Positions 3,419-36,495 of a DNA stretch of 39,423 nt are shown one piece after another (within the stretch, counting starts at the first letter, position 1; each line of letters begins with the position of its first letter). This stretch comes from Candidatus Rokuibacteriota bacterium (GTDB lineage Bacteria; Methylomirabilota; Methylomirabilia; Rokubacteriales; CSP1-6). The notes under the pieces are model-generated. The model was not told the origin of the DNA, did no database searches, and saw only the letters and a list, made by a program, of their open reading frames with translations. Both the position numbers and the translations under genes were made by a program. Location: assembly GCA_016179875.1 (NCBI GenBank), contig JACPCH010000216.1, positions 1 through 39,423 on the forward strand, given 5' to 3'.

Positions 3419-4888
3419 CTAGCCGAGCTTGCGCAGCTCCTTCTTCAAGATCTTGCCCGTCGGGTTTTTCGGAAGCGCGCCGATGAACGCGACCTGCTCG
3501 GGCACCTTGTAAGCGGCGACGGCGCCCCGGCAGACCTCACGCAGCGCCTCGGGCGTCACCGTCCGGCCCTCCTGGAGGACCACGAACGCCTTCACGGCCT
3601 CGCCGCGGACGGGATCGGGCACGCCCACGACCGCGGCCTCCTTCACCGCCTCGTGGCGGTACAGGACCTCCTCGACCTCGCGCGGGAACACCTTGAAGCC
3701 GGCGACGTTGATCATGTCCTTCACGCGGTCCACGAGGTAGTAGTAGCCCCCGGCGTCGCGGTAGCCGATGTCGCCGGAGTGGAGCCAGCCGTCGCGGATC
3801 GCCTCGGCGGTGGCCTGGGGATTGCCGAAGTAGCCCTTCATCACGTTGGGGCCCTTGATGAGGACCTCGCCCAGCTCGCCGTCGGGCACCTCCCGGCCCT
3901 CCTCGTCCACCACCCGCATCTCGACGTTCTCGATCGGCGTGCCGACCGAGCCCGGGCGGACCTGGACGTCGTGGTTCCACGCCGCGAAGGGCGAGCACTC
4001 GGTGAGCCCGTAGCCCTGCGCGACCGGCCGGCCGTAGCGCTCCTGCCAGCGCCGCTCGACGTCGGTCGGCAGCGTCGCCGCCGCCGAGAAGAAGATCCGG
4101 ATCGAGGAGAAGTCGAGCGGCTTGTCCATGGACAGGAACAGGATGTACATCGTCGGGACGCCGTAGAGCAGCGTGACGCGATGCCGGGCCACCGCGCCGA
4201 GAAACTGATCGGGGACGAAGCGCGGCTGGACGACGAGGAGCGCGCCCGCCGTCACCAGCGCGTTCATGACGAAGTTCTGGCCGAAGCAGTGGAACATCGG
4301 CACCGCGCAGAGCCCGCGGTCCTCGGGCGTCATCCGGAGGTGGTGGACGGTCGCGTAGGCGTTCGAGACGACGTTGGCGTGGCTCAGCATGACGCCCTTG
4401 GGCCGGCCCGTCGTCGCCGAGGTGTAGAGGATCGCCGCCGTCGCCTCGCGGTCGAGGTCGAGCGCGCGCCGCGGCTCCCCGCCCGGGAGCGCCGCGAACT
4501 CCTCGGCCGGCAGCACGTGCGTGACCGACGGCATGCGGTCGCGCGGCGGCAGGTTGCCCGCCACGGCGGCCGCCGTGATGACGGCCTTCGGCGTCGCGTC
4601 GCCGGCGATGTAGGCGATCTCCTCGGCGGCGTAGGTGACGTTGAGCGAGAGCGGGATCACCCCGAGCTTCTGCGCCGCGTAGTAGGTCAGGACGAACTCG
4701 GCCGAGTTCGGCAGGTGCAGGCCGATCCGGTCGCCGGCCTGGAGGCCGAGGCGCGCGAGGCGGCCCGCCAGCACCGAGCAGGCGGCGTCGAGCTCGCGGT
4801 AGGTCCAGCGCTGCTCGCCGGCGGCGATCAGCGCGGGGCGGTCGGCGTGCCAGCGCGCCGCCTGCTCGAGCAGCCCGGCGACGTTCAC
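3419..4888 (-). CDS. AMP-forming acyl-CoA ligase
   Basis: A 489-residue member of the ANL superfamily, which activates a carboxylic acid with ATP and transfers it to CoA. The GTG start at 4888 overlaps the upstream gene's stop as GTGA. It gives VNVAGLLEQAARWHADRPAL, the usual beginning of these enzymes; the longer open frame upstream is only a shadow of the oxidoreductase. Visible motifs are the P-loop-like YTSATTGRPKGVMLSHANV (Ala where Gly is common), GYGLTECSPF (A5), the GWLHSGDIGY region (A7), VKDMINVAGFKVFPREVE (hinge) and the C-terminal PKNPTGKILKKEL containing the catalytic Lys. The length is slightly short for the family, and the C-terminus looks complete. No CoA-specific substrate can be named; medium- to long-chain or aromatic acids are possible. 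It is translationally coupled to a quinone oxidoreductase. Confidence 0.88.
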   Translation of the reverse strand: MNVAGLLEQAARWHADRPALIAAGEQRWTYRELDAACSVLAGRLARLGLQAGDRIGLHLPNSAEFVLTYYAAQKLGVIPLSLNVTYAAEEIAYIAGDATPKAVITAAAVAGNLPPRDRMPSVTHVLPAEEFAALPGGEPRRALDLDREATAAILYTSATTGRPKGVMLSHANVVSNAYATVHHLRMTPEDRGLCAVPMFHCFGQNFVMNALVTAGALLVVQPRFVPDQFLGAVARHRVTLLYGVPTMYILFLSMDKPLDFSSIRIFFSAAATLPTDVERRWQERYGRPVAQGYGLTECSPFAAWNHDVQVRPGSVGTPIENVEMRVVDEEGREVPDGELGEVLIKGPNVMKGYFGNPQATAEAIRDGWLHSGDIGYRDAGGYYYLVDRVKDMINVAGFKVFPREVEEVLYRHEAVKEAAVVGVPDPVRGEAVKAFVVLQEGRTVTPEALREVCRGAVAAYKVPEQVAFIGALPKNPTGKILKKELRKLG

Positions 4889-5853
4889 GGGATCAGCAGC
4901 ACCTTGCCCGTGGTCTTGCGCCCCTCGAGCGCCCGGTGGGCCTCGGCCGCGTCCTTGAGCGGGAACTCGAATTCGAGGCGCAGCTTCAGCCTGCCGTCGC
5001 GGACCCAGCCCGCGATCTCGCCCGCGCGCTGCAGCAGCTCGTCGCGGGTGATGATGTGGTGGTTGAGGCTCGGCCGCGTCAGGAAGAGCGAGCCCTTGGC
5101 GTTGAGCGTCTGCGGGTCGAAGGCGCCGATGGGGCCGCTCGAGGCGCCGTAGAGCGCCATCAGGCCGCGCGGGACCAGGCAGTTGAGGCCCTTGTCGAAC
5201 GTGGTCTTGCCCACCGAGTCGTACACGACCTGGACGCCCTTGCCGCCGGTGAGCCGCTTCACCTCGGCCTCGAAGTCCTGCGTGCTGTAAAGAATCACCT
5301 CGTCCGCCCCCGCCTCGCGCGCGAGCTTGGCCTTCTCCGGCGTGGACACGGTGCCGATGACGCGGGCGCCGCGCATCTTCGCGATCTGGCACAGCAGCAG
5401 GCCGACGCCGCCCGCGGCGGCGTGGACCAGGCAGGTGTCGCCCGCCTTCAGCGGGTAGGTGGAGCACGCGAGGTAGTGGGCGGTCATGCCCTGCAGCATC
5501 ATCGTCGCGCCCTGCTTCGTGCTGAGGCCGGCCGGCAGGATCACCAGCCGCGCCGCCGGCACCGCCGCGTACTGGGCGTAGGCGCCCGGCACGCCCGTGT
5601 AGGCGACCCGGTCGCCCGCCTTCACGTCGGTGACGCCGGAGCCGACGGCGCTCACGGTGCCGCCGCCCTCCACGCCGAGCGTCAGCGGCAGCGTGAGCTT
5701 GTACAGGCCGCTGCGCTGGTAGACGTCCATGAAGTTGATGCCGGCGGCGTCGAGCTTGACGACCACCTCGCCCGCCTTGGGCTGGGGCTCGGCGATGTCC
5801 TCCAGGCGCATGACCTCGGGACCGCCTTGCGTATGGATGCGAACGGCTTTCAT
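4885..5853 (-). CDS. NADPH:quinone oxidoreductase, MDR superfamily
   Basis: A 322-residue zinc-free medium-chain dehydrogenase/reductase of the quinone oxidoreductase (QOR) type, expected to reduce quinones or enones with NADPH in the cytoplasm. The N-terminal GroES-like domain contains AGINFMDVYQRSGLY and LPLTLGVEGGGTV, both characteristic of QOR. The Rossmann fold has AAAGGVGLLLCQIAK (about residues 144-158), and QVVYDSVGKTTF follows. It lacks the Cys-rich structural zinc loop of zinc alcohol dehydrogenases. The start ATG is preceded by GGGAGG at suitable spacing. Its stop overlaps the start of the acyl-CoA ligase, so the two are coupled; the 40-nt gap upstream leaves room for its own ribosome site. 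The pair suggests degradation or activation of an unsaturated or aromatic acid (inference). Confidence 0.88.
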   Translation of the reverse strand: MKAVRIHTQGGPEVMRLEDIAEPQPKAGEVVVKLDAAGINFMDVYQRSGLYKLTLPLTLGVEGGGTVSAVGSGVTDVKAGDRVAYTGVPGAYAQYAAVPAARLVILPAGLSTKQGATMMLQGMTAHYLACSTYPLKAGDTCLVHAAAGGVGLLLCQIAKMRGARVIGTVSTPEKAKLAREAGADEVILYSTQDFEAEVKRLTGGKGVQVVYDSVGKTTFDKGLNCLVPRGLMALYGASSGPIGAFDPQTLNAKGSLFLTRPSLNHHIITRDELLQRAGEIAGWVRDGRLKLRLEFEFPLKDAAEAHRALEGRKTTGKVLLIP

Positions 5854-5893
5854 CGGTGCGACCTCCCTCGACGGATTCGTGCGGCGCAGCGGA

Positions 5894-6745
5894 TTATAGC
5901 ACCGGCGTTCGCGCCGGCTCGCCCAGGAGGCCGCGCAGCCAGTGGTACAGCGCGTAGCACTCGAGGGCGAACGGCGGAAAGCCGAGGTAGCCGAGCACGG
6001 GCATCTCGAAGAGCTTCACGTCGGGCGGGTACGGGACCGTGTAGGTCCACTTCGTCAGCGCCCAGTAGTTCCAGAACTCCCAGAGGACCCCGCACACGAG
6101 GCCGCTCGCCAGCAGCGCGGCGAGACGCGAGGCGTCGCCCGTCGCGAGGTCGGCGAGCCAGGACGGCCGCCCGCGCCGGCAGTTCAGGGGCTCGAGGAGG
6201 AGCAGGAGGCCCGTCCAGACGAGCGGCACGAGCCACGCCGAGACGACGACGAGCGGCAGCGCCGCCGCCACGGCGCCGAGCGCGATCGACGCGCGCAGCG
6301 CGCGCTCGGACGGCCGCCAGGGCCTCACCCGCGCGCGCCGGAACACGGTGGCGCGCAGCGCCGAGGCCGTCAGGAAGAGCGCCGGGAAGATCGTCGCGAA
6401 CGCCCAGTCGTAGCCGACGCGCCGCAGGAAGAGGTTCGGCTCCATCTCGTGGTACCGCCACCACAGGCCGACCGCGTCGGCGCCGCCGCGCCAGAAGCGC
6501 GGGGCGTTGTACCACTCGAAGAGCCACCAGCCGCCGACGGAGACGAGCGCGACCAGCACGGCCTCCACGCGGTCGGTCGTGAGGTAGGAGCGGCCGGTGA
6601 GCCGGGCGACCACCGCGTCCAGCAGGAGGACGTAGCCCGTCCAGACGACCGGGGTGAACCACCGCCCGGCGAGCGCCGAGCCCGAGAGCAGCGCCGCCTC
6701 GGCGCCGAGGACGACGCCGAGGCCGATCCAGCCGTGGCGCCGCAC
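5894..6745 (-). CDS. polytopic membrane protein with internal duplication
   Basis: I do not recognise a named family. The chosen GTG at 6745 gives 283 residues. Hydrophobic segments near residues 8-25, 32-46, 61-78, 114-130, 155-175, 176-186, 206-224 and 252-272 predict about seven or eight membrane helices. The protein appears duplicated: residues about 29-85 (FTPVVWTGYVLLLD, then GGWWLFEWYNAPRFW) match about 171-233 (WLVPLVWTGLLLLLE, then CGVLWEFWNYWALTKW). Both are followed by a W.Y stretch and a GY...FP motif. The conserved aromatic and acidic residues inside helices suggest a binding site in the membrane. It follows the secreted unknown protein by 17 nt and probably shares its transcript. 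A transport or lipid-modifying role would be a guess. Confidence 0.65.
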   Translation of the reverse strand: MRRHGWIGLGVVLGAEAALLSGSALAGRWFTPVVWTGYVLLLDAVVARLTGRSYLTTDRVEAVLVALVSVGGWWLFEWYNAPRFWRGGADAVGLWWRYHEMEPNLFLRRVGYDWAFATIFPALFLTASALRATVFRRARVRPWRPSERALRASIALGAVAAALPLVVVSAWLVPLVWTGLLLLLEPLNCRRGRPSWLADLATGDASRLAALLASGLVCGVLWEFWNYWALTKWTYTVPYPPDVKLFEMPVLGYLGFPPFALECYALYHWLRGLLGEPARTPVL

Positions 6746-32077: not shown

Positions 32078-32803
32078 TCACCGATGCACCGTCCGGGCGG
32101 CGGGCGCCCGGCGGTAGGCGCAGGCCGGCATCCAGCAGCGCGCGCACTGGCTGAAGTAGTTGTCCACGCGGGCCTCGCGGCCGGCGCCGGCGAGGAGCGA
32201 GATGGACTTCACCGGCGCCATGAAGCACGCGGCGTTGAGGGTGACGCCGACGGCGTCGCCGGGGCAGAGCCGGAAGAGCTCGCGCTGCTGGGTGACGTCC
32301 CAGCCGGCGTAGCCGGGGCTGATGCGGTTCGTCACCCTGAGCCCATGGGCCAGCCCCTCCTGGCAGAGCGCGTCGTTGACGTACTCGGCGAGACTCTCGA
32401 CGGCGCCCGAGCCGACGCTGTCGAGCATCATCGCCAGCGGCAGCTCGCGCGCCGCCCACAGCTCGGCGACCCGGCGCTCGAGCGCGTCGCCGATCGTGCA
32501 GACGCCGGCCACGACGTGCTCGACCGCCCCCCAGCTCTCGCCGATCGTCGGGATCGCCAGGGCGACGCCGCCGGCCGCGAGCGTGTCGCGGTCCCCGCGG
32601 GCGACGGGAGCCCAGCGGACGACGGCGCGCGGCGCCATGAGGCGGCGGCCGAGGGCGAGCGCCTCGTCGAAGAGCGCGCGGACCGCCGCGTCCGGCACGT
32701 CGCGTCCCTTCTGATAGCCCTGGAAGCGCAGAGCCTCGTCGGGGTCGATCTCGAGGGCGATGTCGGTGAGCACGCGGGGGGTGGCGGGGAACGGCGCGGT
32801 CAC
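32078..32803 (-). CDS. corrinoid reactivation protein (MetH activation-domain family)
   Basis: A 241-residue stand-alone homologue of the AdoMet-binding activation domain of cobalamin-dependent methionine synthase. The GTG start at 32803 overlaps the homocysteine methyltransferase stop (GTGA). Recognisable blocks are DEALRFQGYQKGRDVPD near the N-terminus, CTIGDALERRVAEL, the AdoMet-site-like RISPGYAGWDVTQQRELF and GVTLNAACFMAPVKSISLL. In full-length MetH this domain reductively remethylates inactive cob(II)alamin with AdoMet. The C-terminus carries a Cys cluster CxxCx4C (QCARCWMPACAYRR), a pattern I know from stand-alone versions in anaerobes, possibly a metal or Fe-S site (inference). The gene sits directly beside the corrinoid protein, so its target is clear by context. 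Confidence 0.82.
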   Translation of the reverse strand: MTAPFPATPRVLTDIALEIDPDEALRFQGYQKGRDVPDAAVRALFDEALALGRRLMAPRAVVRWAPVARGDRDTLAAGGVALAIPTIGESWGAVEHVVAGVCTIGDALERRVAELWAARELPLAMMLDSVGSGAVESLAEYVNDALCQEGLAHGLRVTNRISPGYAGWDVTQQRELFRLCPGDAVGVTLNAACFMAPVKSISLLAGAGREARVDNYFSQCARCWMPACAYRRAPAARTVHR

Positions 32804-33714
32804 TTCTTGCGGCTTCGCACGACCTCGGCGATGAGTCGGATGTGCTCGGGGTTCGAGCCGCAGCAGGCGCCCACGACGTTGCACCCGGCGTCGAGGAGCG
32901 CGGGGTACTCGCGCGCCATCGCCTCGGGGCCGAGCTCGTAGGTGACGGTGTCGCCGGTGGTGACCGGCAGGCCCGCGTTCGGGTAGGCGACCAGCGGCGC
33001 GTCGGTGACCCGGCGCATCTCGCGGATGATCACGATGGCCCGGTCGGGCCCGCGGCCGCAGTTCATCCCCACGATGTCGGCGCCGGCGGCGAGGAGGCTC
33101 TTGGCGACGTCGGCGGGGCTCTCGCCCCACATGGTGCGGTCGCGGTCGTGGATCTCCTCGTACTGGAAGAACATCGTCGCCATCACCGGGAGGTCCACGA
33201 CCTTCTTGCACGCGCGGATCGCGGCCGTCGCCTCCTGGGGGAACATCATGGTCTCGACCGCGAAGAGATCCACGCCGCCCTCGGCGAGCGCCTCGGCCTG
33301 CTCGCGGAAGGTCGTCTCGTATTCCTCGTCGGTGACGCCCGCGTCCAGCGCGTAGTCCTGCGGCAGGCGGCTGGTCGGGCCGATCGAGCCCGCGACGAAG
33401 CCTCCGGACGGGGCGGCGGCGCGCGCCAGCCGCGCGCCCTGCGCGTTCAGCTCGCGCGTCCGGTCGCCGATCCGGTACTCGTCGAGCTTGAGCCGCGTGC
33501 CGCCAAAGGTGTTGGTCTCCACGATCTGGCTGCCGGCGTCGACGTAGGCCCGGTGGATCCCCCGCACGACGTCGGCGTGGGTGTCGTTCCAGAGCTCCGG
33601 GCAGGCGCCGTTCAGGAGGCCGGCCGCGAAGAGCATGGTGCCGTAGCCGCCGTCGAAGACGAGCGTCTCGCCACTCCGGAGGCGCTCGACGACCTCCCAG
33701 CCGCGCGCCTTCAC
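32800..33714 (-). CDS. homocysteine S-methyltransferase domain protein (MetH N-terminal type)
   Basis: A 304-residue stand-alone S-methyltransferase. It resembles the homocysteine module of MetH. The zinc Cys are Cys219 (GMNCGRGP) and Cys284-Cys285 (GACCGSNP). The beginning LVFDGGYGTMLFAAGL and ETNTFGGTRLKL are family hallmarks. Its ATG overlaps the corrinoid protein's stop (ATGA), and its stop overlaps the reactivation gene's GTG start, so the three are coupled. It should take the methyl group from the neighbouring corrinoid protein, with homocysteine as the likely acceptor. Other thiol acceptors cannot be excluded, since corrinoid-linked members of this family can differ in substrate. It is a distant paralogue of the methyltransferase half of the 29709-31559 fusion. 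Confidence 0.85.
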   Translation of the reverse strand: MKARGWEVVERLRSGETLVFDGGYGTMLFAAGLLNGACPELWNDTHADVVRGIHRAYVDAGSQIVETNTFGGTRLKLDEYRIGDRTRELNAQGARLARAAAPSGGFVAGSIGPTSRLPQDYALDAGVTDEEYETTFREQAEALAEGGVDLFAVETMMFPQEATAAIRACKKVVDLPVMATMFFQYEEIHDRDRTMWGESPADVAKSLLAAGADIVGMNCGRGPDRAIVIIREMRRVTDAPLVAYPNAGLPVTTGDTVTYELGPEAMAREYPALLDAGCNVVGACCGSNPEHIRLIAEVVRSRKK

Positions 33715-34388
33715 GCCCGCGCCGCCTCCGCCCGCCCGCCGCGGAGCGCCTTGGCCTTGAGGACCGCGAGCGTGGCGTCCCGGGCGTAGCCGTCGGCGCC
33801 GATCTCGTCGGCGAACGCCTGGCTGACGGGCGCGCCGCCCACCATGACCTTCACCCGCTCGCGCAGCCCCGCCTTGACCAGCGCGTCGATGGTGCGCTTC
33901 ATGCCCGGCATGGTGGTGGTCATGAGGGCGGAGATGCCGACGATGTCGGCGCCGTGCTCCTCGACCGCCTTCACGAACACCTCGGGCGCCACGTCGCGGC
34001 CGAGGTTATGGACCTTGAAGCCCGCGCCCTCCAGCATCATGCCGACCAGGTTCTTCCCGATGTCGTGCAGGTCGCCCTGCGCGGTGCCGATCACCACCAC
34101 GCCGAGGTTGTCGTCGGGGCGCGCGCCCGCCGTGATGAGGGGCTTGAGCAGATCCAGGCCCGCGTACATGGCGCGCGCGGAGAGGAGCACCTGGGGCACG
34201 TAGTACTCGTTGCGGCGGAACTTCTCACCCACCACGTCCATGCCCGGGATGAGCCCCTTGAAGATCAGCGCCTTCGGGTCCATCGCCAGGTCGAGGCCTT
34301 CCCGGGTCTTGCGCGCGACCGTGTCCTTGTCGCCCACGATCAGGGCGCGCGCCATCGCCGGATAGTCGAAGCCGTCGTCACCGCTCAT
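33711..34388 (-). CDS. corrinoid (B12)-binding methyl carrier protein
   Basis: A 225-residue methyl carrier of the MtaC/MtbC/MetH B12-domain family. The N-terminal helical cap (about 1-88) contains IPGMDVVGEKFRRNEYYVPQV. The Rossmann-like B12 domain follows, with the cobalt-ligand motif Asp106-Leu-His108-Asp-Ile-Gly111 (GDLHDIGKN), then VGISALMTTT and VGGAPV. All residues needed for base-off, His-on binding are there. The ATG has GGGGGAGG upstream. It is the first gene of a nine-gene overlapping run and is directly coupled to a homocysteine methyltransferase and a reactivation protein. No folate-binding or substrate-specific methyltransferase (MtaB-, MtbB- or MtgB-type) gene is adjacent, so its methyl source is open. 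Confidence 0.93.
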   Translation of the reverse strand: MSGDDGFDYPAMARALIVGDKDTVARKTREGLDLAMDPKALIFKGLIPGMDVVGEKFRRNEYYVPQVLLSARAMYAGLDLLKPLITAGARPDDNLGVVVIGTAQGDLHDIGKNLVGMMLEGAGFKVHNLGRDVAPEVFVKAVEEHGADIVGISALMTTTMPGMKRTIDALVKAGLRERVKVMVGGAPVSQAFADEIGADGYARDATLAVLKAKALRGGRAEAARA

Positions 34389-34449: not shown

Positions 34450-36495
34450 TCAGCGCGGCGGCCGCTCGGCGGGCTCGGGGAGGGCCGGGACGCCGTCGCC
34501 CGACGCGAACGACACGCCAGCCGCGTCGCCGCTGCGCCAGACGACCGTGCCCTCGACCTCGATGGGCGTCGGCAGGGCGCCGCCCTCGCACTGGATCCGG
34601 AGGCGGGTGCCGACGCCCAGCTCCGCGGGCACGCCGGTGAGCGAGATGCCGTTCTTGGCGATGTCCCGCGTCCGCACCGGCACGACCTCGCGGGCGCCGA
34701 CGACGGTCACCGTCGCGGCGGCGCCGAGCGCGACGCGCGGGTGCTTGCGGAGGTTCGCGGGCAGCACGCCCCAGATCCGGACGGTCTCGGCCCGGCCCTT
34801 CACCGCCACCGCGCCGAGCTCGTAGGTCGGGAACTGGCCGCGGACGCGCTCGTGGGTGGACTCGCTGATGATGATGGACGCGCCGTACTCCTTGGTGAGG
34901 GCCTCGAGGTGCGCCGCGATGTTCACCACGTCGCCGATCGCCGTGTACTCGAGCCGCTGGCGCGAGCCCATGGTGCCGACGATCGCCTCGCCCGTGTTGA
35001 TCCCGACGCCGTTGCGGATGGTCACGCCGAGCTTGGCCTCCCAGCGGGCCGAGACCTCGAGCGTGCGCTCCTGCAGCTTGAGCCCGGTGCGCACGGCGTT
35101 GGCGGCGTGGTCGGGGTCGTCGATCGGGGCGTTGTAGAGCGCCATCACGCAGTCGCCGATGTACTTGTCCACCGTGCCGCCGTACTCGAAGACGACCTCG
35201 GTCATCTCCGACAGGTACTCGCGCAGCATCTCGACCACCTGCTCGGGCGCGACGCGCTCGGCGAGCGCGGTGAAGCCGCGGATGTCGGAGAACAGCACGG
35301 TGACGAGCCGGCGGCTCGACCCGAGGCTCACGTCGCCCCGCTGCCGCACGATCTCGGTGAGGACGGCGGGCGAGAAGAACTGGCCGAGCCGCCGCCGCTC
35401 GCGCTGCTCGCGGACGAAGTTGCCGACGACCGCCGCGCCGTAGCCGAGCAGGAGCGCGAGCGTGACGGCCGCGAACCGGAACCACGCGCCCCACACGCTG
35501 AAGGCGAGGAACGTCACCGCCGCCAGCGCCGCCCACAGCCCGGCGCTCGCCGCCAGCGCGCGGAGCGCGCGCAGGCGCACCACGAGCCAGGCGCCCGCGA
35601 TCGCGGCCGCCAGCGCGACGGCCGTCGAGAGCCAGCGCGGCGCCTCTCGCACCGCGAGGCCGCCCAGGAGGGTCTCGAGGGCATTGGCATGGATCTCGAC
35701 GCCCGGCATCGTCCGCGCGCGCGCGAAGGGCGTCGAGTAGACGTCCTGGAGGATCGCGCTCGTGGGGCCGACGAGCACGATCTTGCCCTGGAACGTCTCG
35801 GGCGGGACCTCCCCCTGCACCACGCGGTGGTACGGGATCCACGGGAAGGTCTTGGGGCCGCCGCGATAGTTGATCAGGAACTCGCCGGGCGGCGGCAGCT
35901 CGGCGGCCGGCAGCCCGGCGGCCCGGGCGAGCCGGTAGAGCGCGAGGTCGAACGACGGGATCAGCTCCTCGCTGTGCCGGCGCTGGAGGGGCACCCGGCG
36001 GAGGGTGCCGTCGGCGTCCACGGTGACGCTGACGGTCCCGATCGCCGCCGCCCCACGCCGGATCACCGGCAGCGGCGGGTTCAGGTCCACCTTCGTGTAG
36101 AAGGACTCCGACACCTCCGTGATCGCCGAGGCCAGGACGATGTTGCCCGCGCGCGCGACGGAGCCGCCGAGGGTCTCGTCGTCGGCCCGCCCGCGCGGCG
36201 ACGGCTCGGAGAACAGCACGTCGAAACCGATCGTGATGGGGCGCCCGGCGTTGATGGTCTCGACGAGGTTCGCGTGCAGCGCCCGCGGGAACGGCCACGG
36301 CAAATCGAGCTCGTCGAACGAGTCCTCGTCGATCGTCACGATGACGATCGGGAAGACCGGCGGGCGGGCCCCCCGCAGCTCGAAGAGCCAGTTGAGCAGG
36401 CCGAGCTCGCCCGTCTCCAGGGCGCCCGCGAAAACGAGCGCGGCGGTGAGGAGGCCGGCGGCGATGCCCATGATGAGCGTCCTGACGGCGGTCAT
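34450..36495 (-). CDS. CHASE2-class III nucleotide cyclase-PilZ protein
   Basis: A 681-residue membrane protein. The ATG at 36495 is preferred; a GTG just before it is the alternative. After an N-terminal helix comes a periplasmic CHASE2 sensor domain (about 35-290: IVIVTIDEDSFDELDLPWPF, TIGFDVLFSE). Three membrane helices (about 295-370) and a class III cyclase domain (about 400-575) follow. Cyclase hallmarks are LFSDIRGFT (first metal Asp), VDKYIGDCVMAL (adenine-selecting Lys, second metal Asp) and YTAIGDVVNIAAHLE. In that last block residue 529 is His where the transition-state Arg normally stands (codon CAC), four residues after the conserved Asn. A PilZ domain (about 585-675) ends it, with RKHPR and DIAKNG resembling the c-di-GMP motifs RxxxR and D/NxSxxG. 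It diverges from a cyclic-nucleotide phosphodiesterase. Confidence 0.85.
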   Translation of the reverse strand: MTAVRTLIMGIAAGLLTAALVFAGALETGELGLLNWLFELRGARPPVFPIVIVTIDEDSFDELDLPWPFPRALHANLVETINAGRPITIGFDVLFSEPSPRGRADDETLGGSVARAGNIVLASAITEVSESFYTKVDLNPPLPVIRRGAAAIGTVSVTVDADGTLRRVPLQRRHSEELIPSFDLALYRLARAAGLPAAELPPPGEFLINYRGGPKTFPWIPYHRVVQGEVPPETFQGKIVLVGPTSAILQDVYSTPFARARTMPGVEIHANALETLLGGLAVREAPRWLSTAVALAAAIAGAWLVVRLRALRALAASAGLWAALAAVTFLAFSVWGAWFRFAAVTLALLLGYGAAVVGNFVREQRERRRLGQFFSPAVLTEIVRQRGDVSLGSSRRLVTVLFSDIRGFTALAERVAPEQVVEMLREYLSEMTEVVFEYGGTVDKYIGDCVMALYNAPIDDPDHAANAVRTGLKLQERTLEVSARWEAKLGVTIRNGVGINTGEAIVGTMGSRQRLEYTAIGDVVNIAAHLEALTKEYGASIIISESTHERVRGQFPTYELGAVAVKGRAETVRIWGVLPANLRKHPRVALGAAATVTVVGAREVVPVRTRDIAKNGISLTGVPAELGVGTRLRIQCEGGALPTPIEVEGTVVWRSGDAAGVSFASGDGVPALPEPAERPPR

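Follow-up and report, generated by a model that had tools for sequence, protein, structure and literature searches.

The locus

The window, i.e. the whole stretch of 39,423 nucleotides analysed here, encodes on its minus strand a protein of 681 residues which is flanked by a divergent phosphodiesterase-like gene and, downstream, by a gene for a corrinoid protein (Table 1). The cyclase frame starts with an ATG at position 36495 and ends with a stop codon at 34450–34452. The first-pass annotation had proposed a CHASE2 sensor, a class III cyclase and a PilZ domain on one chain, and this fusion is real: all three domains exceed their Pfam cut-offs, with 193 versus 26.3 bits for CHASE2 and 87.1 versus 21.9 bits for Guanylate_cyc. 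For the PilZ domain, that annotation had named a profile search with PF07238 as the check; residues 582–665 reach 30.0 bits, above the cut-off of 22.5 bits.

Table 1. Features of the cyclase locus in the window
Feature	Coordinates	Strand	Basis
CHASE2 – transmembrane – class III cyclase – PilZ protein, 681 aa	34450..36495	−	Translation, Pfam; frame open, no internal stop
CHASE2 domain, residues 15–302	35590..36453	−	PF05226, E 9e-57
Three long helices, residues 287–371	35383..35637	−	AlphaFold2 model: H287–307, H310–335, H341–371
Class III nucleotide cyclase domain, residues 397–571	34783..35307	−	PF00211 (Guanylate_cyc), E 1.4e-24
His529 codon, site of the catalytic transition-state Arg	34909..34911	−	Aligned to R of CyaB, Cya2 and CyaC
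PilZ domain, residues 582–665	34501..34752	−	PF07238, E 6.7e-7; fold matches
PilZ RxxxR motif, RKHPR, residues 583–587	34735..34749	−	Alignment of relatives
PilZ DxAxxG motif, DIAKNG, residues 611–616, Ala for Ser	34648..34665	−	Alignment of relatives
Metallo-beta-lactamase-fold gene, class-II cyclic-nucleotide phosphodiesterase-like, 253 aa	36528..37289	+	PF02112, PF12706; divergent linkage
Corrinoid (B12-binding) protein gene, downstream	33711..34388	−	PF02310, PF02607; synteny

CHASE2 is an extracytoplasmic sensor. Judging from the full-chain AlphaFold2 model (mean pLDDT 81.7), the three long helices at residues 287–371 are likely to comprise transmembrane segments and a signalling helix. 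Confidence is low in the stretches 384–392, 509–520, 582–588 and 666–681. The top Foldseek match of the full chain is the CyaB cyclase (3r5g, TMt 0.86).

The corrinoid gene is a conserved neighbour of the cyclase, with no evident link to signalling. In Rokubacteria it forms part of a conserved neighbourhood in which genes for the corrinoid protein and a homocysteine S-methyltransferase lie in tandem (32800–34388, minus strand).

The cyclase domain

In class III cyclases, an arginine at the position aligned with residue 529 stabilises the transition state. The window protein retains the other catalytic residues (D404, K444, D448, T518, N525 and K566), so that the two metal-binding aspartates, the Lys/Thr pair and the asparagine of a complete class III adenylyl cyclase are present and the transition-state arginine is missing. 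It is replaced by His529, which the first-pass annotation had overlooked; solved relatives carry the catalytic arginine there. Among 50 unique relatives, this position is arginine in 46 and histidine in four. A wider alignment of 96 rows, consisting of the window protein and its wider relatives with duplicates dropped and L127 absent, shows arginine in 93, including all 48 relatives below 44% identity.

The earlier annotation had left the product as cAMP or cGMP. K444 and T518 align with the lysine and threonine of the adenylyl cyclases CyaC and CyaB, and the guanylyl cyclase Cya2 has glutamate and glycine instead; cAMP is therefore the expected product of this type of active site, and cGMP is not. 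Each residue of the substrate pair is found in 49 of the 50 unique relatives. A guanylyl cyclase identity was considered and is unlikely given the same pair.

The PilZ domain and its family

Both PilZ motifs described in the first-pass annotation are present, as is the alanine in place of the usual serine. Of the canonical c-di-GMP-binding signature, the window protein has RxxxR and departs from [D/N]xSxxG by this single alanine. The isolated domain is modelled with a mean pLDDT of 76.3 as a PilZ β-barrel, and solved PilZ domains with bound c-di-GMP (Alg44, PA0012) top its Foldseek list. In a second fold comparison the 20 best entries are all PilZ, headed by BcsA (Z 12.1, rmsd 2.3 over 80 residues). 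A chance PilZ match is excluded by the profile score above cut-off, the fold and the conservation across relatives. Passages retrieved in a literature search on the effect of the Ser-to-Ala change on binding held no direct measurement.

The nearest relatives of the window protein come from Candidatus Rokubacteria metagenome-assembled genomes. Across the phylum, 49 of 95 genomes contain a match at E 1e-110 or better. In 41 of the 95 this match extends to query residue 664 or beyond, thus covering nearly the whole PilZ domain. These 41 comprise 40 of the 57 genomes from the window's own family (two of the 40, G011 and G024, with N-terminally partial matches) and one of the 38 elsewhere in the phylum. 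A second sample was centred on L081, a protein titled Nitrospiraceae: 13 of its 295 genomes match at 1e-80, and in seven the alignment with the L081 query extends at least to residue 668. Soil and groundwater bacteria that have been little studied carry this fusion as a recurring family. Of 692 matching plasmid records, not one spans 80% of the query at a single place by the count of the search tool.

In the dereplicated set of 50 proteins, PilZ is present in 44 and absent in six. Since the latter occupy at least three places in the tree, the domain was probably lost, or gained, more than once. L038, L045, L046, L070, L072 and L077 are close family relatives which end after the cyclase.

Both arginines of RxxxR are kept in all 44 PilZ-bearing members, and the complete motif (both arginines, D/N, Ser and Gly) is found in 33, 31 with aspartate and two with asparagine; two further members have glutamate instead of aspartate. 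The serine is present in 35 and is otherwise glycine (six), alanine (two) or threonine (one). In 42 of the 44, exactly 17 residues separate the conserved VKG lysine of the cyclase from the first PilZ arginine.

These counts bear on the question of whether the PilZ domain of the family is a protein-contact module which does not bind c-di-GMP. Non-binding PilZ domains do exist, according to passages of PMC10333796 and PMC12564702, and a profile built from the PilZ set matches solved PilZ chains weakly (best E 0.012). Against this stand the complete binding motif in three quarters of the members (33/44) and the fact that the best fold matches are c-di-GMP-bound PilZ domains, and we regard a pure contact role as rather improbable.

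The divergent phosphodiesterase-like gene

The neighbouring gene starts 33 bp from the cyclase start and runs in the opposite direction. It scores 56.6 bits with PF12706 (cut-off 27) and 52.1 bits with PF02112 (cut-off 23.7), the latter match being partial (profile positions 82–145 of 340). With a profile of 14 relatives, yeast PDE1 is the top PDB match (E 1.3e-12), and the HxHxDH metal motif (H53, H55, D57, H58) is invariant in all 14 rows. The match to NF041851 lies far under the cut-off (29 of 400 bits). The protein thus resembles a class-II-like cyclic-nucleotide phosphodiesterase; its substrate we infer, because generic metallo-beta-lactamase families (RNase Z, PhnP) also match, weakly.

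Linkage was counted in 47 unique full-length members for which 300 bp or more of upstream DNA was available, 41 with PilZ and six without. Of the 41 PilZ members, 22 have a divergent phosphodiesterase homologue within 200 bp, as does one of the six PilZ-less members. Among the 19 remaining PilZ members, two have it at about 900 bp. The pairing is not a mere reflection of shared chromosome order, since a deep group keeps it without an adjacent corrinoid gene: in L039, L063, L065, L068 and L073 the phosphodiesterase adjoins the cyclase and the DNA examined contained no corrinoid gene, and in L075, from the same group, the phosphodiesterase stays by the cyclase and the corrinoid gene lies about 1.5 kb beyond the cyclase. 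The back-to-back arrangement of a messenger-making and a messenger-destroying gene supports a role in cyclic-nucleotide signalling.

A divergent copy and its intact paralog

The four members with histidine at position 529 are the window protein, L048, L049 and L127, all copies at this locus within one genus. These four group in a single clade (SH-aLRT 100) in a quick tree from which the PilZ part and the transition-state column had been omitted. The PilZ serine is missing from all four (A, G, G, G). In genomes of sister species a second paralog sits elsewhere (L056/L128, L057/L130 and the fragment L129); it keeps the arginine as well as an intact DISEGG, and the flanking DNA examined contains no phosphodiesterase neighbour. 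All three sister genomes of the genus contain both paralogs. A search of the window's assembly, which is 77% complete, found no second paralog at E 1e-40.

Several measures set the two paralogs apart. PilZ scores in the histidine clade are 30.0, 27.8, 21.6 and 16.7 bits, the last two under the cut-off of 22.5, versus 41.1 and 35.7 bits in two copies of the second paralog. Between genomes G002 and G003, the histidine copies share 70% identity in the cyclase domain and 45% in PilZ, versus 93% and 83% for the second paralog. For G001 and G003, the corresponding values are 86 versus 94% (cyclase) and 77 versus 88% (PilZ). The linked phosphodiesterase is 87% (G002–G003) and 91% (G001–G003) identical.

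Substitution rates (NG86) follow the same pattern, with the reservation that they are rough on GC-rich codons and that the paralogs differ in dS for the same species pairs. Cyclase dN/dS is 0.28–0.58 in the histidine clade (six pairs) versus 0.10–0.17 in the second paralog (three pairs), and PilZ dN/dS is 0.66–1.15 versus 0.31–0.65. The CHASE2 domain of the histidine clade gives 0.34–0.57 and the linked phosphodiesterase 0.15–0.26. Four syntenic pairs of arginine-bearing members from other genera show 0.07–0.19 for the cyclase and 0.32–0.77 for PilZ. As PilZ values are also high in these pairs, PilZ is the less constrained domain throughout, and the paralogs contrast more clearly in the cyclase. 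The cyclase and PilZ domains of the histidine clade are under looser constraint than those of the second paralog.

The earlier proposal of a cyclase controlled by c-di-GMP has to be divided at this point. It gains from the motifs, the nearly constant spacing and the K/T pair at the level of the family, for which a c-di-GMP to cAMP link is plausible from sequence, and it loses ground for the copy in the window, given His529, the missing serine, the falling PilZ scores of its clade and the rates. Reduced or lost activity is the more likely state of the window protein than a working switch. Overall, we consider it reasonably probable that this protein is a copy in decay, or one put to another use, within a genuine family of adenylate cyclases that are putatively regulated by c-di-GMP.

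Two other readings keep the protein in function. It could be a working nucleotide cyclase switched directly by c-di-GMP in which alanine and histidine are tolerated variants. Such a switch would fit the retained RxxxR, Asp and Gly of PilZ and all the metal and substrate residues of the cyclase, a PilZ score above the Pfam cut-off, and a phosphodiesterase partner kept with intact metal motifs; we nevertheless hold it to be unlikely, as arginine occupies position 529 in 46 of 50 relatives and in the solved ones, the PilZ serine is lost clade-wide, and rates are relaxed in both domains. Loss of the serine need not end binding by itself, because members with the catalytic arginine (L025, L078, L060, L052) also have glycine or alanine there.

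Alternatively, the window protein could be a non-catalytic partner of the intact paralog. The mammalian C1/C2 cyclase heterodimer has one working site. In an analogous pair, the window protein would supply the two metal aspartates, and the paralog the lysine, threonine, asparagine and arginine. Retention of the metal aspartates with loss of the arginine, the presence of both paralogs in the three sister genomes and a dN/dS below 1 in CHASE2 and cyclase agree with such a pairing. It is weakened by the second paralog not having been found in the window's 77% complete assembly, and by L127, the copy of genome G001, which reads VAKYFGDR for VDKYIGDC; these changes beside the substrate lysine are in line with ongoing decay. 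We judge this pairing to be a slim prospect, a little below that of the working switch.

The preferred reading, a decaying or repurposed copy, has evidence against it as well. The frame is open, the catalytic residues except the arginine are kept, and dN/dS in CHASE2 and cyclase is below 1; selection thus still acts on the protein to some degree, and it may be active.

Relation to known systems

CHASE2 class III adenylate cyclases are common in Rhizobiales and others, and they share with the window protein the CHASE2 domain, the transmembrane helices and the class III cyclase. Forty-eight wider relatives align along the CHASE2–cyclase part; in the relatives L082–L126, except L121, the query match stops at residues 568–589 and there is no PilZ part. 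CyaB (3r5g) and CyaC (1wc0/1wc1) have the same cyclase fold and K/T substrate pair, but they carry the catalytic arginine where the window protein has histidine, and their matches stop short of the PilZ domain. BcsA and Alg44 resemble the window protein in that PilZ is attached to a membrane protein and RxxxR immediately precedes the barrel; they differ in that the output here is a nucleotide cyclase and that the serine of DxSxxG is replaced in the window copy. The divergent neighbour resembles yeast PDE1, a class II phosphodiesterase, by profile match and by a PF02112 score above cut-off, although this match is partial and NF041851 falls far below its cut-off. Mycobacterial Rv1339 is likewise reported as a class II cyclic-nucleotide phosphodiesterase (PMC9293780).

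The known connections of c-di-GMP with cAMP pass through transcription, shared effectors or CRP-like proteins. Passages of PMC10333796 also describe links of this sort. A fusion on one chain would make the link direct, with one messenger controlling another. No description of a PilZ–cyclase fusion was found in searches of open-licence full texts, and cyclase terms are absent from the text of PMC12943098; domain databases may well list the fusion.

Proposed mechanism

The window's genome has six GGDEF matches and eight cyclic-nucleotide-binding matches, so the presence of both c-di-GMP and cyclic-nucleotide messengers in this cell is plausible. On contig C269 of genome G000, three consecutive genes with GGDEF domains lie on the minus strand (4037–6646).

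PilZ proteins carry RxxxR, which wraps around the ligand, on the linker preceding the barrel, and binding would therefore pull directly on the cyclase end. In the family, the C-terminal PilZ domain, held on a short linker of nearly fixed length, would bind c-di-GMP through RxxxR and [D/N]xSxxG, and this binding would shift the cyclase dimer. Synthesis of cAMP would then depend jointly on c-di-GMP in the cytoplasm and on an external signal sensed by CHASE2, with the divergent class-II-like phosphodiesterase degrading the cAMP. The window copy is a divergent member at the phosphodiesterase locus; it has lost the transition-state arginine and the PilZ serine and is under relaxed constraint, and the second copy, with intact motifs, sits elsewhere in the sister-species genomes. 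As a homodimer the window protein is most likely a weak or inactive cyclase, either disappearing or retained for a role in sensing or pairing. Within this scheme, the architecture, motifs, substitutions, linkage and rates are observed, and c-di-GMP binding, the direction of control and the loss of activity are steps which we infer. A more elaborate version, in which a lineage-wide cassette lets c-di-GMP directly drive or brake cAMP synthesis via PilZ, with the phosphodiesterase as eraser, and in which the copy beside the phosphodiesterase in one genus has turned into a pseudo-cyclase modulating its intact paralog, seems unlikely to us.

The paired paralogs, one intact and one which has lost both Arg and Ser, provide a natural comparison to tell which elements of the switch are important. 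A further pattern appears in the Nitrospiraceae-centred sample, where L140, L141 and L143 keep RxxxR and [D/N]xSxxG and have altered cyclase residues: L143 reads AEMRG at the first metal site, and Q or H occupies the transition-state position among the three. These proteins may be c-di-GMP receptors with a dead cyclase as their scaffold. As their erosion is opposite in kind, with PilZ motifs kept and the cyclase altered, the cyclase and PilZ halves of the fusion seem able to decay independently of each other.
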